Shown here: positions 127-62,781 of the stretch, piece by piece
Layout of the letters: each line of letters opens with the position of its first letter
How positions within the stretch are numbered: the stretch's first letter is position 1
Source: Thuidium tamariscinum
Lineage: Eukaryota > Streptophyta > Bryopsida > Hypnales > Thuidiaceae
NCBI GenBank assembly: GCA_947034885.2
Contig: OX344754.2
Location: 5,525,001 to 5,589,000 of the forward strand
Reading direction: 5' to 3'
Length of the DNA: 64,000 nt
The notes under the pieces: model-generated
Seen by the model: the letters and a program-made list of their open reading frames with translations, nothing else
The model's database searches: none
What the model was told of the DNA's origin: nothing
Translations under genes and position numbers: made by a program

Positions 127-743
127 ACGGTGGAAGCACCCAAAACCGTCCAAATAAGGAATTCAGCATAGTTGGAGGCATCTTTTTCTAAAAATGATAT
201 TTTCTAGTATTAGCGAGTGAAAATCATGAATATTAAAAAAGAAATTAGATTTTTCAGATGTTGTATGTAATTTCTCTTATTTTTCAAAGTGTTGGCTTCC
301 TAAACCACTAAAACCGTGCAATAGGTATACCCCAAACTAAACCTTATTAAAATCAACAGTGAGCTAATCATATATTTATATGTGCCCTTGAAATGCATCA
401 GCCAATTAGAATCAAGCATGTGGTGAATACATTAACCCCTAAACGACACTAGAGTCGTTTCTTGGTCGAAGAACAGGCGAGCCTTTTGCTGTACAGGATA
501 GAAATGCAAGCATTCATCTTCGGAATTAGGGGTGGAAAAGGAAGATCTTCTACAGTTCTTTGACTTCAAATGCGCACTTTTGGATTTTTTAATTCCAATG
601 ATTCCCACGGTTTCACAAAAGATGGTTCGTTGGATGCCCCCCCCCCCCTGCGTCGTTTAAGGGTTAAGGGAACTCTACCTACGCAATTGGGTGAGTCTAC
701 AGTCCACTACAAGGGATACGTTCAGGAATATGTATTTTTCCCT
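127..743. mobile_element. TA-flanked MITE carrying a nested TTAA MITE
   Basis: Ends resemble GGTGGAAGCACCC and its inverse, with TA at 125-126 and 744-745. It is homologous to copies at 810-1173 and 49492-49875. Removing the nested 228-bp element and one TTAA leaves 385 bp, matching the 384-bp copy at 49492. The copies at 127 and 810 are in direct tandem orientation. Confidence 0.7.
436..663. mobile_element. TTAA-flanked MITE (CCCYTAAACGAC ends), 228 bp
   Basis: Begins CCCCTAAACGAC and ends GTCGTTTAAGGG, with TTAA at 432-435 and 664-667. Homologous host copies at 810 and 49492 are unoccupied at this point and carry a single TTAA, which supports TTAA as a true target duplication. A close relative lies at about 50523-50744. 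It is non-coding and contains a C-run near 638-648. Confidence 0.75.
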
Positions 744-10512: not shown

Positions 10513-10516
10513 TTAA

Positions 10517-11086
10517 CCCCTAAACGCTGGGCGGGTAACCGTGCCCAACAGCGGGCAGTGAACACAGTAGAGTTGAGCACAGACCAGGGAGAAGACCACC
10601 TCACCCCACCCCACCTGGCCACCTCATAATTAAAAAAAAAGTCAATGCAGCACAACTCAGAAGAAGGAAGTCTGCAATTGAAATTAATAGTGGGCAGCTT
10701 AGTTTAGATATCATGTTCAAAGAATCTGTGAGTCTCAATAAATCTGAGTTCACTAACTGAGGCTAATTTTTGCACCTCATAATGGCATATGAGTTTAACC
10801 CTTGAATGATGCTGTGGATGTTTGGCGTCCACTTTCATCTTTGGTATTAGGGGTGGAAAGGGAAGATCTTCTACAGTACTTTGACTTCCAATGCATATAT
10901 TTGGCTTTTTCAAAATAGGTGACGTCATACGGTATCAAAATGCATGGTTTCTATGGCCACTGGTATGTCCTTCAAGGGTTAAGTTCACTAGAAAAAAATT
11001 TGGATGAAAAATGTTCTTTTTCTTGTTTGCTAGATTGATTTAATGTCATTCATCGACCAAGAAGTGGCATTTGTGTCGTTTGAGGG
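10517..11086. mobile_element. TTAA-flanked element interrupted by a second TTAA MITE
   Basis: Begins CCCCTAAACG and ends GTGTCGTTTGAGGG between TTAA at 10513-10516 and 11087-11090. The right ~50 bp is the inverse of the left end of the element at 436 (shared GACCAAGAA/TTCTTGGTC block). It contains the nested element at 10799-10978. Confidence 0.65.
10799..10978 (-). mobile_element. Nested TTAA MITE (CCCTTGAAGGA type), 180 bp
   Basis: CCCTTGAATGATG at the left and CATACCAG/TCCTTCAAGGG at the right are inverted, with TTAA at 10795-10798 and 10979-10982. Read on the minus strand it matches copies at 31896, 50304, 62554 and 63631, sharing ACCGTG..AATCATGCATTTTGAT and GAAGTCAAAG..GTAGAAGATC blocks. 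Confidence 0.75.
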
Positions 11087-11773
11087 TTAAGGAAGTGCTA
11101 TGGTGGATAGTCACACAGAGGTTCTAGGAGGCCAAATTTTGGAAAATAGCCATTTTAAGAAATCTCTTAAATGCATCTTTGTGGAAAAAAAATTAATTTT
11201 AAATTCCTTGAAACAAAATTTCATTGCCAGCTAAGAGCTCCAATCAAATGAAATGTCATGCCACGACTTAACAAGAAACATAAGAATTCTGCCTTAGTAT
11301 CTTGTGTAAAATCAATCTCTCCCCATCTTTGGCTATAGACCTTAAAATTGGACCTTAAAATTGGAAATAGGGCAAACTAACTTGCACGCGAGCTAGCTTG
11401 ACATTTCCCTTTTTTTAGAATTCAAGCCCAACAATCAATAAAGCTATGATCATTTTTTTTAAACGCAATGTGATCAATCTTAGAGCTTCGCACACTAAGT
11501 GAAAATCTTGTACACTTGAAGTAAAATTCCTGAAGGTAGACAAAATAAAGTCGTTGCCCTTAAATCTAGAATACCAAAAGCCAAAAGACGTAAAGGCCAA
11601 ATAGTGCAACGGAAACATGAGAATGAGAGTAAGAATGGTTGAAACATTCTAAAAATTTCTTGTGAGGCATCTTTAGAAAAATATTCAAAAATTCCATCAA
11701 CCTTAATCTAAAACAATCCAAAATCCTAATCCACCAAATTCTACCCATTATGTGAGGCACCTTCCCACCTTTT

Positions 11774-22486: not shown

Positions 22487-23844
22487 GGGTGATTGCACAA
22501 AACACCTGGCAGTTTGATTGCGTTTTGATTTTGAAGCGCTATAACTTTTGATGTATGAATCCAATGCCAAAACCAAAAAACATATTTCTAAAGATCTTGA
22601 CAAAAATTGTATTCCTTATTTTTCGGAAATTTTAAAAAATAATTTTATATTTAAAAGTTAATTTTGTTAATTTGTCACACTTTGACATAGTGGGGTTTTT
22701 AGTACTATTGAGCGGTGAAAATTAAATTTTTTAGATAAAATTTATATGGTATATTTTATTAGTAGATAGACATGTTCTTACCAAAGGAAATCTAAAAATA
22801 CATTATTTTGTATCCTCCACATTTGTGCAAACAAGCCTTCTTTGCGTGTGCAATTCCAAACATTAGAAATGGTTTTGACCTCATTTTTTTAGTCAAATAG
22901 CATCACCAAAAAGTCTTCCCAAATGGATGATTTTTACTTTTGTTGAAAATTGTTTTTCCTATTTTCTACAAATTAAAACATTAAAGTATGTATTTTCTTA
23001 TTTTCTAGAACAAAACTCTATGTCCAAAAAATGTCCTAGAAAATACATGCTTTAACGTTTTAATTTGTTAAAAATAGGAAAAACAATTTTCAACAAAAGT
23101 AAAAATTGTCCATTTGGGAAGGCTTTTTGGTGATGCTATTTGACTAAAAAAATGCAGTCAAAACCATTTTTAATGTTTGGAATTGCACGCGCAAAGAAGG
23201 CCTCATTAGAAGAAATTTGAGGGCATTAGGAGACTGTGGGTTCCCGGACTGCGGGAACGCAATTTCTGCCCTAGGAACTTGAATCCTACGTGGTCGAGAT
23301 ACTGCCACGTAATAATAATTTATTTTTTTTCAATTTTTTTTTGGACTTATTTTCATATTTCAGGACCCCCAAATTTTTATTTTTATTTTTATTTTTATAT
23401 TTTTTGATAAAAGTCGGCTTGACAGGGGTCTGCGGCATTGGGAGCCGTTTTGGGAACAGACCTGAAACGGCCCTGTAATGCTCAGATTTCATCTAATGGT
23501 TTGCACAAATGTGGAGGATACAAAATAATGTATTTTTAGATTTCCTTTGGTAAGAACACGTCTACCTACTAGGAAAATATACCAGAGAAATTTCAGCTAA
23601 AAAAATTAGTTTTAACCGCTCAATAGTACTAAAAGTCCCACTATGTCAAAGTGTGACAAATTAACAAAATTAACTTTTAAATATAAAATTATTTTTTAAA
23701 ATTTCTGAAAAATAAGGAATACAATTTTTGTCAAGATCTTTAGAAATATATTTTTTGGTTTTGGCATTGGATTCATACATTGAAAGTTATAGTGTTCCAA
23801 AATCAGAATGCAACCAAACTGCCAAGTGTTTCGTGCAATCACCC
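22487..23844. mobile_element. Foldback element with long inverted arms, interrupted by a MITE
   Basis: GGGTGATTGCACAAAACACC at the left is inverted as GTGTTTCGTGCAATCACCC at the right, with TCAA directly flanking both ends (22483-22486 and 23845-23848). Arms run about 22487-23010 and 23020-23844; the right arm is split by a CATTAG MITE at 23204-23498. Arm similarity is high but imperfect. Ends resemble the GGGTCATTG elements at 20398 and 43011, so these form one group. No coding capacity. Confidence 0.8.
23204..23498. mobile_element. CATTAG-family MITE inside the foldback, 295 bp
   Basis: Starts CATTAGAAGAAATTTGAGGG and ends GATTTCATCTAATG. It contains CCCGGACTGCGGGAACGCA, GGTCGAGATACTGCCACGTA and a (TTTTTA)n run near 23370-23400. 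Compared with the intact left arm of the host foldback, the junctions show no clear target duplication. Confidence 0.8.
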
Positions 23845-26568: not shown

Positions 26569-26577
26569 TGTTGTTAA

Positions 26578-27523
26578 CCCCTAAAGCCCTAAACTATGTT
26601 TTTTTGGCAACATAGCAATTTCAAGCAGCTCACTACGAATGAAGTTTTTATTTTTTTCTTTGAAATTTTCACACAACATGTGTCCAAGGAGTAGCTTCAA
26701 GGCCCAACAATTTTCATAACTTTTGACTACATGATTAAAAAGTTATGACATGATATGTTGTTTTGTTTGAACTATGGGTAGTTTGAGCAACAAAAAAGAC
26801 TTCTTCAAAAATTTATTTTTTCTAAGAATTAAAATTTGAAACTGGTTTATTAGATTTTTATCTATGTGGAAAGCTTTGAATCATTCCATTTCAATACATG
26901 AGTCAAAGGTTATAAGGAATTCTAGTTTGGGGTAGTTCATGGGTAGTTATAGAATCTTTACTCTACAAAAAAGTTTGAAATTATTTATTTAATTCAATTT
27001 TTAATATTTTTGAAAAAAAATTAAAACATTGGGTGGAGATTGTTTATACAATATTTTAACCATTGGAATTGACATTTTTCATTTTTATAGATAAATTGTT
27101 CACAATTTAGTATTTTCAAGCATTTTCTACTTCTTTCTACTAACTATTTTTTCCTATATGTTATACAATTCCAAATGATTTGAAATATTTTTAGCATATA
27201 TCTAACTTGCATTTCAAATTGAATACAAAGAGTAACTATCATTTTGAGTATTTTTTTATACAAATGTGACCTTGTGAAGTATAGCTACCCGGGTTTTTGC
27301 AGGGATAAAAAAAGGATTTTTGCTAGTTCAAATGTAAAAATCTTGCAATCTATATAGTGAAAATTTTTTAAATTTTTTCCACATCTTTTCAAACCACTTA
27401 ACTATAAGATCCTGAGGTTAAATATGTCAAAAAAAATGTATTTTTCCAAAAAAATTGCACTTGTATTAGAAATCGCAGTTTTGGAGTCATCTTAGTGGAA
27501 ACATAGTCAAAAAACTTTAGGGG
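26578..27523. mobile_element. Large TTAA-flanked element, 946 bp
   Basis: Begins CCCCTAAAGCCC and ends CTTTAGGGG between TTAA at 26574-26577 and 27524-27527. The left ~400 bp matches the left arm of the element at 33661 (CAAGGAGTAGCTTCAAGGCC block); the right half differs, so it is not a foldback. No open frame suggests a transposase. Confidence 0.7.
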
Positions 27524-27527
27524 TTAA

Positions 27528-29637
27528 TGGAGGGGGGGTCAACCTCTACTATATCTATATAAATTCAAACCAACAAGTTAGAAATTGCATAAGAAAAGAA
27601 AACACAATATTATCACTTATGGAGTGAAAGATTGCAATGTTTGACCATGAGGGTGTTAAAATTGCAAAAGTGATGTGAATTCTTTCTATCCTCTTTTTCC
27701 CAAGTCAAATCTCAAAAGTTGATGACCAAAAAAATCTGAGATTTACAAGGCCTAACATACACAACTCCAATCAATTTGTCGCTTCTCAAAATCTATTCTA
27801 GAATTTTTGTAAATGAATTTTTTATGTGATTTTCTTCCCAAGATCTATTGTATTTGAGGCTTATTTTCAAAAACTTTCAACACTACCAAAAATCACTAGT
27901 AAAAAATCTGCCTAGTTTTGTTGTTTTGGTCACGTTGATGAACAACAAATTTCTATTAATCAAGATTGCAATGAGTATCCTTGCACAAAATCTTGAATAG
28001 AAAAATCTCTATCATTCATTTTCCAAATCAGATTTTGACACTAAATTAGACGTCTAAAATAACTTTCCAAAAATACTAAATACTAAAAATAGAAATTTTG
28101 TTAGATTTTATTTAACTTCAAAGTTTTACAAACACCAAATTTTGGTGCCTTCGGCATTTCAAGGTTAAGGGTTTTGAACATAATTTCTATCTATAGATAT
28201 CCAACAAGTCATTGGACCCTATTAATAGGAGCAAAATAATTTCAATGTACTTTTAAATGTGTTATTTGGACATTGTGAGTGTAAGTTGTGAATTTTTTTT
28301 AAACCAATTATGAATGCACCTAATATCAATACCAGGGTTTGATATTCAAATGTAATACATCATTGTAATTACATCAATCCACTTTCCAAGATTTTTCAAG
28401 ATTGAAGAGGAGATGGATATGGGTACAGTGAGGGTTATAGGTGTTGCTACCTTATACATTATGATAGGTTGTTTGTTTGTTTGTTTGTTTTGTTTGTTAC
28501 ATTGAGATCTTAAAAACTATATGTCTCCTAGTCGCATTCTTGGTATCGTTAGAAATTCCATAATATTGTTCACTAGTTCAATGACCCCCTAAAGTGAAGG
28601 TATAATCCCCTCTTAGATATATAGAGGGAATTAAGTTATAATTTGCACAATTTAATTGGCTGGCTTGCTAGATCTACAATTCCAACCCATTCATTGGCCT
28701 ATTCATTCCTCCCACCTATATACTTTACAAACTTTCTTTGTTGGGGGGCTCCTACTTCCTACTCAAGCAAAAAAGGGCCCCCATGGCATAAGAGAAAATG
28801 TGAGGCCTTTGGAGGGCTGCTCCACAACCCTTAGAAGACCCCAAACTTCAATTTTTTTTAGCTTAACAAATCTTTTTTCCCCTATTCTCGCTCACCTTCT
28901 ATCGAGATGTCGGACAATTGTCAAGGGCTCCAAATCCAAGTTTAAGTGTTCAATAATCAAAATTATAGTATTCTGATGGAATTTTTTAAGCTCTTGGAAA
29001 CTTTAAACTTGGATGTTATTTAAGATCCATCCAAGTTGTGGAATACGAAGTGGATGTCAGTGAAGTATGTTCTCCATATTGCCATGAAGAGTTGTTGATG
29101 AGAATATATGTGGAAGACTTTCTTCGTGGGTAATTGATGAGGAAGAAAGGTGAAGAAGCTATTTTTATAGAGAAAGCCATTGTCCATCATGAATCTCAAA
29201 GAATATGGGATATTTTCAAGGTGAAAGCTTGGCCGCTCATAGTTATGAGAAAATGCAGAAAATGTCCCAAAAATGAATTTTAGGTCTACCTCATTTAGGC
29301 ACAATAGATCAACTTTTTTGGAAAAACTTAGAACTACAAAAAGTTGGAAAAACAAACTAACTTTTATCTCCAAAAATAGGTTTGAAGTTTCCACACTAGA
29401 CACATAAGTTATATTGATTTTGTCTATTTTGTATTCAACCTAATTGTGTTAGAAAATGCTACAACCTTCTCTCTCATATAGAACTTTGACAATTGTTTTT
29501 TTTTATCAATATAAGTTAGCCCTTATTTGCTTTGTACTTTTCATTGCAATCTTAATCATCCATCATTTATAAAATTTATGTCTTCCAAATTTGACAACTA
29601 GTACATTTGTCATTTCACATATTCTAGTTTAAAGATT
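27528..29637. other. Intergenic DNA, no recognised gene
   Basis: Holds a (TTTG)n tract at about 28466-28498. An open frame of 127 codons on the minus strand at 29020-29403 is Phe/Leu-rich and matches no family I know, so I do not call it a gene. Confidence 0.4.
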
Positions 29638-31042
29638 TGTACAGTAGGGTACCAATCAAAATGGCGTTTTCGCATCCGTAGTGAGAAAAATTTCGGTACT
29701 GCCAACTTTGGAAGCGTCCTGCAAGCTCAAAAATTGATATTTTACCACGAAATTTTTACCACAGCATAATCTTTAAGTTAACTATATGTGTGCCAAATTT
29801 CAAGTCCAAAAAATTCACCAAAAGAAAGTTATTTAAAGTCTACCAACATGGGTAGTGGTGAGAAACATTTCACTACTTTCAACTTTGACACCTTCCTAAG
29901 GATTGCGTTCTTTTTCTTTTGCCATGAAATTTTTGTCATGAAACAATATGTTTTTTTTAATATGTATAAAAAATTTCAAGGTAAAAGAATTTTCTTTTAA
30001 GAAGATATTTGAAATCTCCCAACAAGTGTAGTTTTGAGAAAATTTTCACAATTTTCAACTTTGACACCCTCCCAAGGGCTGAAAAATTGGTTTCTTACCA
30101 TGAATTTTTTTTTGTGAAGTTACATCTATGTTGATAATATGTGCTCCAAATTTCAAGTTCAAATGAATTACCAAAAAAAAGATATACATAATCTCCCAAC
30201 ATGCGTAGTTGTGAGAAAATTTTCACTATTGCTAACTTTGACACCCTCCCAAGGGCTGAAAATTTGTCTATTTAACATGAATTTTTTTGAATAAGATCAA
30301 CTTTATGTTGATAATATATGTTCCAAATTTCAAGTTCAAAACACTTACCCAAAAAAAGATATTCAAAATCTCTCAACATGTGTAGTTGTGAGGTTGAGTT
30401 TTTAGATTCGTGTCAAACTTTGCTCCACAAAAAAACACTATACTAAGGGCTCAAAAACTCCTCCTCACAACTACAATTGTTGGGAGACTTTGTATATCTT
30501 TTTTTTGGTAATTCATTTGAACTTGAAATTTGGAGCACATATTATCAACATAGATGTAACTTCACAAAAAAAAATTCATGGTAAGAAACCAATTTTTCAG
30601 CCCTTGGGAGGGTGTCAAAGTTGAAAATTGTGAAAATTTTCTCAAAACTACACTTGTTGGGAGATTTCAAATATCTTCTTAAAAGAAAATTCTTTTACCT
30701 TGAAATTTTTTATACATATTAAAAAAAAACATATTGTTTCATGACAAAAATTTCATGGCAAAAGAAAAAGAACGCAATCCTTAGGAAGGTGTCAAAGTTG
30801 AAAGTAGTGAAATGTTTCTCACCACTACCCATGTTGGTAGACTTTAAATAACTTTCTTTTGGTGAATCTTTTGGACTTGAAATTTGGCACACATATAGTT
30901 AACTTAAAGATTATGCTGTGGTAAAAATTTCGTGGTAAAATATCAATTTTTGAGCTCGCGGGAGGCTTCCAAAGTTGGCAGTACCGAAATTTTTCTCACT
31001 ACGGATGCGAAAACGCCATTTTGATTGGTACCCTACTGTACA
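29638..31042. mobile_element. 1.4-kb foldback with near-identical ~577-bp arms
   Basis: TGTACAGTAGGGTACCAATC at the left is exactly inverted at 31042. Arms run about 29638-30213 and 30463-31042 with only scattered differences by eye, around a ~250-bp spacer. The left arm and spacer are built from about four diverged ~177-bp tandem units, each with GAGAAA..TTTCA.. and CAACTTTGACACC blocks (near 29681, 29860, 30035, 30211). No coding function is apparent; the transcript would form a very long hairpin. Confidence 0.85.
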
Positions 31043-31053
31043 ATATTTGAAAA

Positions 31054-31340: not shown

Positions 31341-31895
31341 CATTGTAATAGTTGCCACCTAATAAAAATAAGAAATAGAACCCACAATATATATCCCACA
31401 CTCCTATAGTATTTACCTCTCTATTTTTTTTCTTTAGCATTAATAAGTATATTGCCAATTTATAAAGAAGTATATTAAAACAAGGACTTTGATTAAACAA
31501 ACCAAATCTATTTATACATTGCCGTTATTATTTGAGACATGTTAGAGACTCAGAGCCAACTCCAACTACATTTCACAAAGTTCACATGATTTGACCTCTT
31601 AATTCTAACATATTCCATAGCCCCCTTACCATTGTTTTAATAGATTTGTTTGTCACTCTGGAGCAGCCTTGTATTGGCCCCAAATTTTCTCTCATGGCTT
31701 GGTTATCAATGCTATGCCATCAATGAGGTTGGATATACAGACTTTGTTTTGTAGCATTTTGATTTGTATTGAGAAAGTTATTGAACTTTGAAGTTTTTAT
31801 GAATTAAAAAATTAGAAAATTAATTTGAATTTGAATTTGAATGCAGCAACAACACAAGTTACACTAGTATAGTATGATATTTTCATTGAAATTAA
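31341..31895. other. Intergenic DNA, nothing recognised
   Basis: AT-rich, no gene or bounded repeat seen. Confidence 0.4.
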
Positions 31896-32112
31896 CCCTT
31901 AAAAGGATGGATTGGTGATTGTAGAAATCATCCATTTTGATATTGTAAGAATCATTGGTCTTAAAAAATCCAAAAGCACTCATTAGAAGTCAAACTATTG
32001 TAAGAAAATTTCCCTTTTGATACAAAATTCTAAAGATGAATAGTTGCACTTATATCTACATAGATTCTTTATCATCCATTGGACTCAAAACATCATCCTC
32101 AACAATTAAAGG
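31896..32112 (+). mobile_element. TTAA MITE (CCCTTGAAGGA type)
   Basis: Begins CCCTTAAAAGGATGGATTGG after TTAA at 31892-31895 and has the family blocks AATCATCCATTTTGAT and AGAAGTCAAA. The right end AATTAAAGG is followed by a degraded TTTA. Confidence 0.65.
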
Positions 32113-33656: not shown

Positions 33657-33660
33657 ATAA

Positions 33661-34662
33661 CCCATAAAAGACCAAGCTGCATTTTTTGGCAACATAGTGA
33701 TTTTTGGTAGCTCACTACGAGTGGAGTTTTTATTTATTTTCTATGAAATTTTCGCAAAACATGCACCCAAGGAGTAGCTTTAAGGCCCAACAATTTTCAT
33801 AACTTTTGACTACATTTGAGTTATTTGTAAAGTCCCCTCCACTTTGGGCATGACTTTTTTTGAAGTTGAGAAGGCAACTATAGTTGAAGTGTCAAACTTT
33901 TTTGCAAGATACTTATGTCACACGACTTCAAAAGTGGGGACCAAACTTTTTTAGGCACCATTTTGATGGAAAAATAAGTTTCATACCCACTTTTATTTCA
34001 ACTTTTTAACTCAACCGGCTTTTTCACAAAACTTATGGGTTTAAACCCCAGTTTAGGGTACTTTACGAATAACTCAATTGTTAAAAAGTTATTGCATGAT
34101 ATGTGATTTTTCTTGATCTTTGGGCAGCTAGGGCAATTCAAAAAAATTCTTTAAAACTTACTTTTAAAAAAAATAAAAATTGAAATTGGTTCTTTAGAAT
34201 TATATGTACACTGAAAGTTTTAAATCAATCCATTTGGATTCATAATGTGAAAGTTATGACGAGTTTTGGTTTGTGGATAGGTAAGGTTTTCAAAGACTCC
34301 ATAGATATCCACAAACTAAAACTCCTCATAACTTTCACTTTATTAATCCAAATGGATTGATTTAAAGCTTTATGCGTACATATAATTTTAAGGAATCAAT
34401 TTCAATTTTTTATTTTTTCAAAAATTGATTTTTAAAGAAGTTTTTTGAGTTGTCCTAGTTGCCTAAAAATCAAAGAAAATCACATATCATGCAATAACTT
34501 TTTAACAATGTAGTCAAAAGTTATGAAAATTGTTGGGCCTTAAAGCTACTCCTTTGGTGCATATTGTGTGCAAATTTTAAAAAATAAAATAAAAACTCCC
34601 ACTTGTAGTGAGATGCCCCAAATTGCTATGTTGCCAAAAAATGTAGCTCGGCCCTTTAGGGG
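33661..34662. mobile_element. TTAA foldback element with a 260-bp insertion
   Basis: CCCATAAAAGACCAAGCTGC at the left is inverted as GTAGCTCGGCCCTTTAGGGG at the right. The left flank ATAA is a worn TTAA; the right TTAA is 34663-34666. The arms meet near 34295, where AACTCCTCATAACTTTCAC pairs with its inverse. The left arm carries the TIR element at 33817-34076; without it the arms align. Related, less complete copies lie near 44640-45655 and 58480-58715. Confidence 0.75.
33817..34076. mobile_element. Small TIR element inserted in the foldback arm, 260 bp
   Basis: TGAGTTATTTGTAAAG at the left is inverted as CTTTACGAATAACTCA at the right. ATT at 33814-33816 is repeated at 34077-34079. The opposite arm of the host foldback keeps the uninterrupted site (AACAATGTAGTC), proving an insertion with a 3-bp duplication. 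The superfamily is not certain. Confidence 0.8.
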
Positions 34663-34666
34663 TTAA

Positions 34667-40121: not shown

Positions 40122-40710
40122 AAACTCTATATATGCACATGGAGTGGAAGTAGAACAATCCATGTGGGGGATTGTAACTTAGAAGAAGTAGTTTTTGAAA
40201 TGCTCATATTGAAGTCTAATGAAAGTAAGAATTGTGTTAAAACTAGAATTTCAAACCTCATTTACACATAGTAGAATAACTTATTGCAAAAACTTTCAAC
40301 TAAAAAAAGTTGCTAATTCAAATTAAGTTTCATCTCCAAAAATTTGTTTGAGATTTCAAGCCTCCACTCAAAAGCTATGGACAAATTTCAGAGGTAGTTG
40401 GAAGGAGATTTTTCTTACATTTTCAAATATCCTCTCTAAAATTTTTCCATAACTTTTGAGTGGAGGCTTGAAATCTCAAACGAATTTATGAAAATGAAAC
40501 TAAATTTGAATTAGCAACTTTTTTTAGTTCAAAGTTTTTTGCAATAAGTTATTCTATTATGTATAAATGAGGTCTAAAATTCTAGTTTTAACAAGATTCT
40601 TACTTTCATTAGACTTCACTATGAGCGGTTGAAAAACTACTACTTTTTAATTTAAATATCCCACATGGGTTGTTCTACCTCCTACCATCCTATCTGTATA
40701 TATAGAACTT
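40122..40710. mobile_element. Foldback element, about 589 bp
   Basis: Arms about 40122-40395 and 40437-40710 are inverted: AACAATCCATGTGGG with CCCACATGGGTTGTT, AATAACTTATTGCAAAAA with its inverse, and GGCTTGAAATCTCAAACG near the centre. No clear flanking duplication was seen. The outer arm shares a motif with the hairpins at 39144 and 39374. Confidence 0.75.
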
Positions 40711-43737: not shown

Positions 43738-46141
43738 ATCTGTCCAAATTATTTGCTTTAACAAATGGTTGGTTGACCATTTAGAAGCCACTCTTTTGCT
43801 TGAAGTATTCTCTTAGAGTTAAATTATACTTGTATTAGATGTTTTAGGGGTCTTCAAAAGATTTTGAGTTCTTGGACTATGGAAACTTTGAGAACACTAC
43901 CACGTAAGCAAGACGCGGTCAAGAGAATGTTGTATTAGATAATGGGAATCAATTTTTTATTTTAAAATTATTTTTATTTTTATTTTAAAATTTAATTTAA
44001 TTTTTTAAAATATTTTAATAACTCTTGAACTTCTGAAAAAAGTAATTTTAAATTTATTAGAATATAAAAACATAGAGTCATTATAGTTGAACTTCTCAAA
44101 TTGGATAGGAACAATGGAGAGTAATTATTAGCAATATATACAGTATATAGAGAAGACTAAGTGTCAATTGTCAATTACGTCAACATGCTCATGTAACACA
44201 CTAATTGTATGTGATTTTCACCAAAAATGCTCCAAAACTACCATTTCTAATATAGGTACCAAAGTGTTTTTTTTAAAATTTGAACACATGTAACTATAGG
44301 ATCTAGTTGTATGTTGGTTAGAAAAGATGTGTGAGAAATTTCAAAAATTTTCACCATGAAGATTGCAAGAAATTAGTGTTTGAACTTATAAATTAATTTT
44401 TTTTCCCTATAAAAAACAAAGCAACTACAATTCACAAGGGCACATTATTTTACATGAAAAGATGCCCATGTTGGTGGCACTTCTTTGGATTCATCCTTCA
44501 AAGCAAGTTGGTAACATGCTTGAAATCTTTGAAATCATTTGGAAGTAAATAGTTTATAAGAAAATAATAATAAGTAGAAAGAATAGATAATGACTCAAAA
44601 TACTAAATTTTACATAATTTAGTTATAGAATTAGAAAAAAAATGCCAATCCCAATGGTTGTAATGTTTTAATGAACAATCTACAAATTTATTTTTTATTT
44701 TTTTCACAAAATATTGAAAATTGAGTTAAATAAAGGTCTTCAAATTTTATTTTAGAATAGGATAATCGCATGGACAATCATAACTTTCTACAAACTAAAG
44801 CTACTTGTAACTTTCATGTGAATAGTCAAAATGGGATGATTAACCTTGGAGCGCTCCAACGTCCAAATTCTAGACAATGTACAAATTGAAATCCAGATTT
44901 CTTTATCATTATAGCATGGATGAAAGTCATGAGAATTTTTAGAGATACTTTACAAAGTTGTGGTCCTATCCAAGGGTTGGATTTGGTGTCACTAGAACAC
45001 CTATTTTTCTAAAATTACAAATGTGGAAGTATGTCAAGTAGTTGGCTTGGGTTAATTCTAGTTCAAACTTGGAATTGAAAAAATTAGGTTATAGAATCAA
45101 AGAACGTAAAAATTCCACATAAATCACTATGTCAAGAGAACTTCATTTTAAATCCTTTCCAACAAAATTTACTCAAAAATATTGGTGATAGCATTGACAA
45201 ATTTAACTGTACAGATAGAATCTAAACTCAAACTCTACAACTTTTCTTTGCATCTCAATTCCAAAATATACTTTCAAATATCTCTTTATAATGATTTTTC
45301 TAAAATCATCAATTTTGAAGATGAGTCTTGATGCTTAGGGATTAAAAGCTTCCCCCCTATATATATATATATATACATAAGTCTAAAAAAAATTCCAATT
45401 TTTATTTTTGAAAAAATGTTTTTTCTAGATCTTCCCAGATTATCAATGTGGTAGAAAAAAACTACATATTATACAATAATTTCTTCTTGATCATCAAGTC
45501 AAAAGTTATGAAAATTTTTTGGCCTTAAAGATGTTGCTTGTCCACATGTTGTGCAAAAATTTCAAAGAAAATAAATAAAAACTCAATGTGTAGTGAATTA
45601 CCCAAAATTTCTATATTGCCAAAAAATGTAGCTTGGTCCTTTAGGCTTTGATGTAGCAAATTTATGCACATATGGACTATGCAAATAAATAATACACTAC
45701 AATCATTTATGGAAGCAAGGAATTTGCATTATGAGAGGTTTGACTATAGTTCATAGCATAAGGAATACTTTTAGGGAATGACCCTAAAACAATCTCCTAG
45801 AGACATCTAATGTTTATATTTTTCCATTGAACTTCTATTATTGTCATGATTTCTATGAATTTTGTGAACTCTTCAATTCCAAGCTTATATTTAATGATGA
45901 ATGATCCTATTCATGCTATACCAATCTATAAGAGGTCCATTATAGTCATGTCAAAAGTGAATTATGGCACTACATTTAACCATAGAAGAATGTTGCAAAC
46001 CGAAATGGTCCAAAAGATGACTTCACTCTTCATTGTAAAAAGAATAGAATACCCATAAACTCATTGATTAACATCAAGTACAAAGCTATTGGTGAACAAG
46101 TCGTAGGGGGGGGCAAAGAATGCTACCACATGACTATTAAT
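43738..46141. other. Intergenic DNA with CATTAG and TTAA-element remnants
   Basis: A worn CATTAG-family piece lies near 43832-43940 (ACTACCACGTAAG). From about 44640 to 45655 the sequence resembles the large TTAA elements, ending CCAAAAAATGTAGCTTGGTC. An (AT)n tract is near 45358-45374. Confidence 0.45.
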
Positions 46142-49489: not shown

Positions 49490-49491
49490 TA

Positions 49492-49875
49492 CAGTGGAAG
49501 CACCCAAACCATCCAAATAAAGAATTTAGCATAGTTGGAGAGAGATTTTCCTAAAACTGATATTTTTTTAGTATTAGCAAGTGAAAATCATGAATATTCA
49601 AAAAAAGAAATAGAATTTTCAGACATTGTACGTGATTTCTATGTTTTTTTGTAGTGATGGCTCTCTAGACACTGAAAGTGTGCAATAGGTGCACCCAAAA
49701 CTGAACCCTACGAAAATCAGCACTCATCCAACCAGATTTTCCTATGTATCCTTCAATTGTGTCAGCAAATTACAATCACATATGTGGCAAATACATTAAC
49801 TGCACTCTAGGGACATATTTGAGTAACTCTACAGTCCAGTGCAAGGTTCATGGACGGGAATGGGCGCTTCTCCTT
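49492..49875. mobile_element. TA-flanked MITE, 384 bp, copy of 127-743 and 810-1173
   Basis: Left AGTGGAAGCACCCA and right GGGCGCTTCTCCTT are inverted; TA at 49490-49491 and 49876-49877. It keeps the empty TTAA site that is filled in the copy at 127. Its right TA is the target of the next element. Confidence 0.7.
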
Positions 49876-49877
49876 TA

Positions 49878-50300
49878 AGATAGAACCACCCATTCTCAAT
49901 CAAGGACCCATACCCAACTTATAGGATTTGGCTATTTCCAACCAAGGCTAGAAGAGATTTACAATCAAAGCTTGGAATGTATTTTTCTCCCATTTTCAAG
50001 GTTGGGACTAATAAGGTCATGATACATGTCTCAAAGTGTTATAAAGTGTGTGGGAAGTACTGATTGGGAAAGTAGTCTCGGCTATGATTTGAATTAGAAG
50101 ACTCTAGACATTGGCTATGGATTCAAAACACTTTTTGGCTTCTAAAAATCATAGTAATTTCAATTTTGGGAATAAAGTTATGAAAAATTTGCAATCCACA
50201 TCTTTCTTATCTTGCTACATGGAAAAAAATTGCATAGCCTCATATTCCTCATGATCTATTCTAGAATTGCTTAAGTGATCAAGTAGAGGTGGTTCTCCCT
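49878..50300 (+). mobile_element. TA-flanked MITE, 423 bp
   Basis: Left AGATAGAACCACCCA, right AGGTGGTTCTCCCT, TA on both sides. Same length as 12371-12793. The copy at 810-1173 shows the unoccupied flank (CTCCTTTATG). Confidence 0.75.
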
Positions 50301-50303
50301 TAA

Positions 50304-50518
50304 CCCTTGAACGATAGACTGGTGACCGTGGAAATCATGCATTTTGATTCCGTGTGACATCATCTACTTTAGAAAAGCCAAATATATTCATTAGAAGTCA
50401 AAGCCCTGTAGAAGATTTCCCCTTTCCACCCCTAAAACCGAGGACCAATAGTTGCACTTCCATTCTACAAGGGAAGATTCTCTCTCATTCTACGGATGCA
50501 AAACTTCCTCTTCAACGT
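50304..50518 (+). mobile_element. TTAA MITE (CCCTTGAAGGA type)
   Basis: Begins CCCTTGAACGATAG after TTAA at 50300-50303; family blocks ACCGTGGAAATCATGCATT and GAAGTCAAAG are clear. The right end runs into the next element at a shared TTAA (50519-50522). Confidence 0.75.
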
Positions 50519-50522
50519 TTAA

Positions 50523-50744
50523 ACCCTAAACCACGTTGGAGTCGTTTCTTGGTCGATGAACAGGCGAGCCTTTTGCTGTACAGGACAGAAATGCAAGCAT
50601 TCATCCTTGGAATTAGGGGTGGAAAAGGAAGATCTTCTACAGTTCTTTGACTTCAAACGTGCACTTTTGGATTTTTTAATTCCAATGATTCCCACGGTTT
50701 CACAAAACATGGTTTTCTAGATGACCCTCCGCGTCGTTTAAGGG
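50523..50744. mobile_element. TTAA MITE, close relative of 436-663
   Basis: Begins ACCCTAAACCACG, ends GCGTCGTTTAAGGG before TTAA at 50745-50748. Long near-identical blocks with 436-663 include GGTGGAAAAGGAAGATCTTC and CCCACGGTTTCACAAAA, indicating recent common origin. Confidence 0.75.
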
Positions 50745-50794
50745 TTAAGGGTTAATTGTTGCCTTTACGGAAAAATAATGTGTGGTTACATTTA

Positions 50795-59090: not shown

Positions 59091-59466
59091 GAGCGTAAAA
59101 GTGTGAGCCTATGACCCTAGAAGACTATACACCTATGATATAAGTATCTATATTATAATAAGTAATCTTCTATGTTAATAATGTATATATGCTATAAGTA
59201 CCTATATTATAGGTGTTTATGTTCTAAATACTTTCAATGGATGTATGATTTATACTTATATATATGCCCAAGGCTCACATGCTCATATACTAGCACCATT
59301 GTGATTTCCATGATCACTTGCCTATCCTTTAGGGCTCAATAGAATGTATAATAATCACACCAAATTTCCAGACATGCAAGCGTCTATATTTTGTGGAAAT
59401 GAAATTGAATTTTATTTATGTGTTGATTGGTAAATTTACTCTAATTGAAGAAATCATAAGGATTAA

Positions 59467-60448
59467 CCTCTAAACACCATAAGGTACCAAAAGTGTCCTC
59501 ATATAGTTTCAAGTCCAATTTAAAGTGTTGTAACTATTGCATACAATGTCTAAATTCAATAAAAAAAATTATTGAAGAATTTGCACTCTCTCTTCTAGTT
59601 TTTGTTGTAAGATTTTAAAATCAATCCAAGATAAAATGATATTTTGAAAGCCAATTGAAGTTTGCAATTTGAATTTGAATTCACCAAATTGCATTCGATG
59701 GTTGTAACTTTGGGCTTGTATTACCTTCATTCTATATTTGTTTTCAATAAAATTTGTTGGATTATACTTCCTATGAGGTCTAATATTGTGGTAAAATTTT
59801 CATATCAATCCAAATTGTTTTGAATGTTTGGGAGCAATTCAAAGTTCAAAATCTCAACATTTTTGGATTACAATGAACTTTGACCGCTTGTTTATTCTCC
59901 GTACAATGTTTGTTTCCAATGTATTTTATTCAAAAAGTTGTGCATACTAATCTAATTTGTATGGCTATAATTTCATAACAATCCAAGAAGTAACGAGTGA
60001 TTGAGAAGCATTTTAGTAGGAATTTCAGTCTTAGATGTGTTCATTGCAACTTTTTTTTGGCTAGTTTTTGATATTTCATATCCATTTTGAAAACACAAAG
60101 TCATTTAAAAGATGTTTTTTTTTCATTAGACATTGTGTTTGTATTTTGTTTTTGAAGCACTTTAAGGTTATAATTTTTTTTCATTTGAGTAGGTTTTAGA
60201 ATTCAAATTTCACCTCCAAATGTATTGCTTGAAAAATTCTAGCATCATTTTTCAACACTAAAACATTATAATCATGCAATCTATGTCTATGTGATCAAAT
60301 TACTCCAAATGTAATTCATGTGTCATCTACAATACATACACTACAATATTGTACAATTGAGATTTCTATACCTAAGCAACATTTAGTTTAATACCATTTT
60401 AAAAGCAATGATATCTTTGAACTCCAAAAGGCCTTGGGCTTTTAGGGG
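59467..60448. mobile_element. Large TTAA-flanked element, about 982 bp
   Basis: Begins CCTCTAAACACC after TTAA at 59463-59466 and ends GGGCTTTTAGGGG before TTAT at 60449-60452. Size and ends match the element at 26578; the body is diverged. No transposase frame. Confidence 0.5.
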
Positions 60449-60849
60449 TTATCACTTCCTAGTTATCAAGATCAAGTTTGCTTCCTCTAGTTATTAGAGG
60501 AATTAAAGTAGCTGATCAACTGATCCCTCTCCAATCACCCCCCTCTTGAAATTTTTGGACTTTGGATTGTTCTATTTATGAGCATATGAGTAGGAATAAT
60601 TCGTCAATTATGATGCATTATAAGCCATTGATTTCCTCTAGATTGCTTGCCTAGTCTATAGTTGAAATCAAATATACCTACATACAAAAATAGGTTTTAT
60701 TGTGTCTTGTTGATGAAAAAAATTGAAAGTAATTTTGTTTTTAGGCCAAAAAATGAAAAAAAATCAAGTCCATTTGAATCATATTTTCCCACATAGATCC
60801 CCCCCCCTAGCTAAGGGCTATGTTGAATTCCTAAACTTGTGAACATCGA

Positions 60850-61628: not shown

Positions 61629-61632
61629 TTAA

Positions 61633-61871
61633 TCCCTAAGCACCCAAGTTCCCCAAATATGGCCTCTCCATTTCAAAAAAATTGCATGTTTGACTATTAT
61701 AATCTTTTCAATAGTACCGTCAAAGGACATGTCTTTTTCCCCAACCTCAAGACTTGTCTCTACTACCAATCAGTACAGTCAAAGCATGTGGACCTCAATT
61801 TAGGAGACAATTTCATTGGAATGAGTTGAGAAAGGTCTCAAATTCAACAATTTGCTCTCGACACTTAGGGG
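61633..61871. mobile_element. TTAA-flanked MITE, 239 bp
   Basis: Begins TCCCTAAGCACC and ends GACACTTAGGGG between TTAA at 61629-61632 and 61872-61875. Part of the body resembles 14540-14670 (GACTATTATAATCTT, CTCTACTACCAAT). Confidence 0.65.
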
Positions 61872-61938
61872 TTAAGTGATCAACTATAGGTACCTCTGCC
61901 TTATATACTTTTACCCTAGAAAACCCCAAACTTACCTT

Positions 61939-62205: not shown

Positions 62206-62553
62206 TCCCCCTCATGTCTATCAATCTTCCTACACAGTGGCCAAGAGATGGGTTTGCATGGGGAACATGGGGGGAATTTGTGCATGGATCTTCATGGTGA
62301 GGACGCTGACTAGTCTTGTCTGCTGAGGTTCAAACGGCCCACGTCATTTGCGGCCTACTTTTTCCTCGGAGCTTGTGCCAGTATGGTTCACGGCTGGGGA
62401 CAGAAGGGGTCTGAATCTAAATAAATTAAAAAAAATTAAAAAATTAAAAAACAAAAAACTTTGCCCTCATTTGTTCTCTTGGAATGAACTCCAAATTTCA
62501 AAAAAAAAATCTCAAGAAAAGAGGAAGAATGGCTTCCCTTGGCGGGATGTTAG

Positions 62554-62777
62554 CCCTTGAAGGACGGATTGGTAGCCGTGGAAATCATGTATTTTAATTT
62601 CGTGTATGACATCATGTAGTTTGAAAAAGCCTAATATATGCATTGGAAGTCAAAGAACTATTGAAGATCTTTCCTTTCCACTCCTAATACCAAAGATGAA
62701 AAGTTGCACTTCTGTCCAGTAAGAAAAGATTCTTTGTCATTCAAAAGACGCAGAACGTCCTCGATGGCATTTAAAGG
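62554..62777 (+). mobile_element. TTAA MITE (CCCTTGAAGGA type), 224 bp
   Basis: Begins CCCTTGAAGGACGGATTGG after TTAG (worn TTAA) and ends GCATTTAAAGG before TTAA at 62778-62781. Family blocks AGCCGTGGAAATCATG and TTGGAAGTCAAAG are well kept. Confidence 0.75.
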
Positions 62778-62781
62778 TTAA

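Follow-up and report, generated by a model that had tools for sequence, protein, structure and literature searches.

The window analysed in this work, a 64,000-nucleotide stretch of moss genomic DNA, contains TTAA-bounded elements which are, with a probability of about 0.94, non-autonomous members of the piggyBac superfamily (MITEs and deletion derivatives) that would depend on a DDD transposase from 5-kb elements located elsewhere in the moss genome. The host, which had been predicted to be a plant, was recognised as a moss by the match of its LEAFY C-terminal exon to solved structures. Genes for LEAFY and for chlorophyll a/b proteins are present in the genome (363 Mb in 19 contigs for the genome-wide counts). 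The LEAFY exon scored 238 bits against 4bhk, with 100 of the 106 aligned residues identical as counted by eye on the alignment, and lower against 9fwy (173 bits) and 2vy1 (172 bits); we take 4bhk to be the Physcomitrium LFY and 2vy1 to be that of Arabidopsis. The LHCB protein was less telling, its top matches being two multi-domain chains of 9vfj, followed by 8htu and 7xqp (436 bits), which are presumably moss structures, with others near them (428 bits). At the places where 2vy1 carries H and R, the LEAFY exon has D and C, and we identify these places with the two positions that the available text of PMC4701952 names for specificity.

TTAA-bounded elements in the window

Eleven exact 12-mer ends, consisting of TTAA followed by CCCYTAAA or by CCCTTGAA, were counted in the window against 0.2 expected under a Markov null (20 simulations, maximum 1), and 24 against 3.6 expected under the same null when one mismatch was allowed. 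In the whole genome, TTAACCCYTAAA occurs 23,907 times and the reversed control pattern 367 times. Because each element has two ends and many ends are mutated, this motif count points to a number of elements of the order of ten thousand or more. The original prediction had listed eleven left ends, described as CCCYTAAA or CCCTTGAA and as bordered by TTAA. The motif is exact at six of them (432, 10513, 10795, 26574, 31892 and 50300), whereas the other five are off by one or two bases (ATAACCCATAAA at 33657, TTAAACCCTAAA at 50519, TTAACCTCTAAA at 59463, TTAATCCCTAAG at 61629 and TTAGCCCTTGAA at 62550); TTAA is kept at nine of the eleven and not at the other two. It is present at both claimed ends in four elements (432-667, 10513-11090, 10795-10982 and 26574-27527) and at the right end only in 33657-34666. 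For 31892, 59463 and 62550, the search for a right end revealed none whose inverted repeat was significant. All the window features described below are given on the + strand.

MITE family 1 is represented by the copy at 432-667 (228 bp between the TTAAs). Its left end carries an AAACGAC...GTCGTTT inverted repeat with a layout like the AACGCC...GGCGTTT of the autonomous 5' ends described in the next section, and a poly-C run is found at 637-648, near the right end. A second window copy, 90% identical to the former, lies at 50519-50748 and abuts the 50300 element at TTAA. The genome search with this family gave 40 scored places among 2,416 candidates, the copies listed being 87-94% identical to the 432-667 query. 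Thirty copies were fetched, including two from the window itself, and L046 and L060, which were incomplete, were dropped. The expectation that the flanks would be TTAA was borne out, as TTAA is found at both sides in 28 of the 28 full-length copies obtained with this TTAA-containing query, and base conservation drops to background at the position next to TTAA. When the 18-base end CCCCTAAACGACGCTGGA was used as a query without TTAA, 20 exact copies were revealed genome-wide; TTAA precedes 17 of these 20 unselected ends and is not exact at the three others. The two unoccupied paralogous sites that had been proposed for this insertion are both real, with a single TTAA at each junction: they are located in the paralogous segments 808-1178 (TTAA at 1094-1097) and 49490-49880 (TTAA at 49796-49799), and the flanks of 432-667, once joined with one TTAA, align gap-free to 1066-1178 (71% over 113 bp) and to 49670-49846 (73% over 177 bp). 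Families 1 and 2 have internal sequence in common, 10834-10913 being 86% identical to 513-592.

The non-autonomous element at 10513-11090, whose left end resembles the autonomous 3' end and whose right end is weakly 5'-end-like, is interrupted by a nested MITE at 10795-10982 (188 bp with its TTAAs), which has CCCTTGAA ends, is related to family 2 and sits in a TTAA of its host element. In four of four paralogs that lack the nested MITE, the two pieces join with an overlap of exactly four bases, TTAA (one of them, L070, was aligned base by base), and this is the cleanest target-site evidence. Judged from their sequence, such empty paralogs could fit either never-occupied or precisely excised sites. 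The 954-bp element at 26574-27527, with ends CCCCTAAAG, belongs to the largest non-autonomous family met (10,622 first-look candidates), of which 32 of the first 40 places span TTAA to TTAA, query copy included. A 1,010-bp relative at 33657-34666 has long inverted repeats and carries ATAA in place of the left TTAA. Inside the ends of this family of about 950 bp (26574-27527, 33657-34666 and 45455-45645), a TTTTTTGGCAACATAG motif was observed.

Three copies were assigned to MITE family 2: 31892-32110 (left end CCCTTAAA, putative right end), 50300-50522 (left end resembling the autonomous 3' ends, right end uncertain between 50522 and 50755) and 62550-62781 (left end TTAG, putative right end equalled by 343 of 500 shuffles). 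Two further elements are possible ones, a TTAA-bounded element at 61629-61875 with a degraded left end (26 of 500 shuffles as good) and a 990-bp element at 59463-60452 with weak ends (43 of 500). The right ends for 31892 and 62550 and the pairing 59463-60452 were unsupported in the shuffle test. TTAA elements were also seen to abut at a common TTAA and so to form small arrays, at 50300-50755 in the window and in the flanks of loci L037, L045, L054, L056 and L057. In the window, the profile of the autonomous 5' ends matches best at 28129-28168 (E 0.0029), where there is a TTAACCTTGAAA end which was absent from the first list. Long inverted repeats of 72-98% identity occur at 29637-31043, 40126-40706, 22835-23201 and 34077-34509; these are perhaps other foldback or nested elements. 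A search of Rfam gave no match.

Autonomous elements, transposase and ORF1

The genome had been expected to encode a piggyBac transposase, and the PF13843 profile indeed revealed 659 candidates; scores were obtained for 116 of them, each above the cut-off, with a best E of 5.7e-80, and the E-value for an element-encoded transposase was 4.9e-79. A moss transposase profile matched piggyBat (6.7e-50) and the 6x67 transposase (9.2e-39). Three D's, which we take to be the catalytic residues, are invariant in ten of ten aligned copies and line up with the D's of piggyBat and of the 6x67 transposase. Nine of these ten copies are 40-73% identical to the first. Given the diversity of the transposase lineages, we infer either a long residence of the family in this genome or more than one arrival. 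Stop codons are absent in 22 and present in eight of the first 30 transposase domains, and a C-terminal cysteine-rich motif was found in 12 of the 14 transposases scanned. No transposase remnant was detected in the 64-kb window by tblastn with 30 DDE domains and a long ORF. Relatives were also sought in viral contigs, where two pattern matches were obtained and neither was confirmed.

Among the 116 scored transposases, six were followed to both ends of the element. With both TTAAs included, these elements measure 5,096 bp (L012), 4,954 bp (L005), 5,046 bp (L003), 5,024 bp (L001), 5,152 bp (L011) and 4,896 bp (L026), and TTAA|CCC is present at 12 of their 12 ends with the transposase gene inside. 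The transposase domain is stop-free in L012, L005 and L003 and contains one stop in each of L001, L011 and L026. The 5' end of L003 reads TTAACCCCTAAACGCCGGCAGCGCCAATTTGTGGCGTTTGGATGAAG, and the 3' ends resemble CCCNNNAACGCYGGGC, which is exact in L001, L011 and L012. Directly inside the 5' end, the AACGCC...GGCGTTT repeat is exact in four of the six elements, L011 and L026 having variants of it. Five more divergent elements were followed on the upstream side only, and a TTAACCC site fitting a putative 5' end was found in L006, L010 and L030. The autonomous elements can be assigned firmly to the piggyBac superfamily.

The 5,096-bp element is present in 11 copies on five contigs, with pairwise differences of 0-2 bases (mean 0.36) over 3,984 bp, and in 11 of 11 copies the TTAA is followed by a differing 3' flank. 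Reading was extended to the 5' end in three copies, which again have unlike flanks there and which are 0, 2 and 2 bases off the first copy over 5,096. Genome-wide, the 31-base 3' end has exactly 11 perfect matches. With a plant substitution rate of about 7e-9 per site and year, the mean of 0.36 differences over 3,984 bp would correspond to some thousands of years of divergence. The simplest reading of the 11 near-identical copies is a very recent transposition, and the elements may still move. Segmental duplication was considered as the source of these copies, and the unrelated flanks argue against it.

A second reading frame, ORF1, was found in six of the six full-length elements. It codes for 229-286 residues and is located upstream of the transposase frame, which it partly overlaps, at nt 674-1492 in the L012/L061 element and at equivalent places in L005, L003, L011, L001 and L026. 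Identity to the first element is 61-68% over the initial ~125 residues and 42-55% over a longer stretch, ORF1 being recognisable between elements with transposases as little as 34% identical. An ORF1 profile also finds the divergent L002 (6.8e-18, the locus holding part of the frame) and L006 (6.4e-5). In L025 the frame was detected by tblastn (1.4e-4) and missed by the profile (1.3), the best reversed decoy reaching 1.2; in L030 it was seen by eye only, and in L010 it was not detected. Altogether, ORF1 is significant in eight of the 11 elements examined. With one ORF1 protein as query, 92 matches were obtained in the genome, 45 of which sit 1.4-3.4 kb upstream of one of the 116 listed transposases and on the same strand (0.07 expected), and none lies on the opposite strand within 5 kb of a listed transposase. 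The other 47 matches may flank unscored transposases (543 candidates) or be relics. Comparison of ORF1 with Pfam, NCBIfam and solved structures gave nothing credible, the lowest E-values being 0.21 for PDB and 0.02 for NCBIfam, the latter match lying far below its cut-off. A splice-donor-like GGTGAG is present at the junction of ORF1 and transposase in five of six elements, and the ORF1 frame stops before this junction motif in three of six (L012, L005 and L001). From the sequence, ORF1 could either stand as a protein of its own or form the first transposase exon.

Relation of the MITEs to the autonomous elements

The MITEs had been predicted to have their ends in common with transposase-encoding elements. 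Profiles of the nhmmer type were built from the six 5' and the six 3' autonomous ends and run on the window, with the reversed window as decoy. The prediction held clearly for 10513 (E 1.2e-6) and 50300 (6.8e-5), several other ends being weak. Further matches were recorded at 28168 (0.003, beginning at model position 8), 432 (0.02) and 11090 (0.054), and weaker ones at 667 (0.059), 50748 (0.074), 61875 (0.12) and 34666 (0.27); all of these are TTAA-bounded ends, and the best decoy had an E of 2.7. In another test, 24 window ends were aligned with nine sampled element ends, with 300 shuffles each; no shuffle was as good for 10513, 31892 and 50300 only, and 1-13 of 300 were as good for eleven others. 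This test gave no support for 667R, 10795F, 10982R, 26574F, 59463F and others. The ends of family 1 (432-667) resemble autonomous ends weakly and over the terminal ~17-34 bases only (E 0.02; 12 of 300 shuffles did as well), and those of the 26574 family show no significant match (60 and 11 of 300). Two MITE lineages are thus tied by sequence to the sampled autonomous elements. Family 1 is connected with them through a short segment and a common arrangement of inverted repeats; for the 26574 family, the connection consists only of TTAA and the terminal motif with its CCC. On these ends, mobilisation of the MITEs by autonomous elements is probable for some families and may also hold for the others.

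In the mechanism that we propose, the DDD transposase of a 5-kb element located elsewhere in the genome would bind an element at its ends, which start with CCC, and at the inverted repeats directly internal to these, and would excise it at the TTAA boundaries. The excised element would then be joined into another TTAA, leaving one TTAA per side, and the short relatives, the MITEs, would use the transposase in trans.

Other superfamilies could produce similar elements. Tourist MITEs prefer TWA targets, and PIF/Harbinger (Tourist-like) elements with a 3-bp TTA or TAA duplication could by chance read as TTAA-bounded in a genome where Harbinger-type DDE_Tnp_4 (PF13359) genes are common (150 scored of 331 candidates). 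This origin is nevertheless very improbable, since TTAA is kept as a unit at both sides in 28 of 28 copies, the overlap at four of four empty sites is of four bases, TTAA, and not a 3-bp TWA duplication, and some of the window ends match those of piggyBac elements. Six Harbinger loci contained one TTAACCC in 20.9 kb, a weak control as no Harbinger TIR pair was found within their 1.5-kb flanks. The PF13359 matches also include a group with identical scores, which suggests near-identical copies. A Tc1/mariner-type element with a TA duplication and ends A-CCC...GGG-T, inserting only into TTAA, could look the same, the outer T and A of the palindromic TTAA being indistinguishable from element bases by sequence alone. 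We regard it as highly unlikely too, since such an element would have to prefer TTAA strictly and to be served by a mariner enzyme with ends of this kind, and it is PF13843 that is encoded in the elements found to carry them. As CCCTAAA, the plant telomere unit, resembles CCCYTAAA, the motif might also represent scattered telomere-like repeats rather than transposon ends. Tandem CCCTAAA, however, does not contain TTAACCCYTAAA, and the sites delimit families whose length is defined, which have TTAA on either side as well as empty paralogs, so that a telomeric source is scarcely conceivable and is refuted for the families tested. The piggyBac-like character given to these elements in the original prediction is supported: neither a predominance of duplications unrelated to TTAA nor ends in common with a transposase of another superfamily were seen, the latter comparison being thin (six Harbinger-type loci with 1.5-kb flanks).

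A different alternative keeps the piggyBac origin and denies present mobilisation only: the MITEs would be genuine piggyBac MITEs that have become relics, and the transposase-encoding elements would be other subfamilies which no longer move the window families. It deserves serious consideration, at rather less than even odds. The divergence of family 1 from the query indicates that this family is not young, and the reach of its ends into the sampled autonomous elements is limited to the terminal bases given above. On the other side, only six of the 116 scored transposases were traced to both ends, so that a closer partner may exist, and the 10513 and 50300 ends match the sampled ends well.

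The moss elements among known piggyBac systems

The moss elements share with T. ni piggyBac (6x67) and piggyBat (9c0f) the PF13843 domain, the three D's, the cysteine-rich C-terminus, the TTAA target and the CCC/GGG ends. They differ from both by their moss host and by the extra conserved upstream frame ORF1, and they are 4.9-5.2 kb long whereas the original element has 2,472 bp, or about 2.5 kb (accessible part of PMC10813416). The piggyBac-like elements and CMITEs of corals, as described in the available portion of PMC2872659, also combine a TTAA duplication with CCC-starting ends and MITEs that have their ends in common with a transposase-encoding element; the left TIR of coral AmiPB2, printed there as CCCTTTAACGCCC, can be compared with the start of the moss L001 3' end, CCCTTTAACGCCG. 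The CMITEs differ by their animal host, their length of about 100 bp and their estimated copy number, up to some hundreds per family (PMC2872659, same portion). With the plant MITE superfamilies (Mutator, hAT, CACTA, Tc1/mariner and PIF/Harbinger; excerpted text of PMC12550479), the moss MITEs share a short length, TIRs and a high copy number.

The piggyBac type has been reported chiefly from animals, fungi and protists; in land plants it is not unheard of, and hardly any description exists. In the main text, as far as available, of a MITE survey of 207 plant genomes including four bryophytes, 'piggyBac' and 'TTAA' are both absent (PMC12550479), and 'piggyBac' is likewise absent from the available text of a Physcomitrium transposon paper (PMC7466625). 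A C-fern repeat table obtained by repeat masking lists 1,230 PiggyBac hits (0.00%), and the one passage naming piggyBac gives no element, transposase or target site (PMC6890710). Elsewhere, piggyBac is mentioned in passing as isolated from 'insects, fungi and plants' (available text of PMC10813416), and PiggyBac is placed among the plant superfamilies by general classification (excerpt of PMC10794571). In another moss paper (PMC10619864) the term proved to be the word 'piggybacking'. No description of native piggyBac elements in a moss was found among the matches listed from the open-licence literature, nor one of intact, abundant and native piggyBac elements in a land plant. The new parts are the moss host with its large numbers, the very recent copies and ORF1.

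By a small margin, we favour the broader view that mosses host a long-lived, diversified and still-moving two-frame piggyBac lineage, in which ORF1 (~230-290 aa, an unnamed protein or an N-terminal exon) travels with the transposase and which has seeded about ten thousand or more TTAA-bounded MITEs. If true, no native piggyBac radiation would have been documented this well in a land plant before, and nature would provide a seamless transposase already adapted to plants. Since its insertion and exit leave no scars, piggyBac is widely employed in genome engineering; in plants it has been used as an animal-derived import (a title cited in PMC12732532; available part of PMC10794571). The moss copies, identical within two bases, point to a native plant piggyBac system, which could reveal the MITEs fed by such an enzyme. 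Elements of the kind described here may be misfiled in surveys that assign plant MITEs to the five usual superfamilies. The entry of piggyBac into land plants, by vertical descent or by transfer, becomes testable, and ORF1 raises the question of the role of a second piggyBac component.
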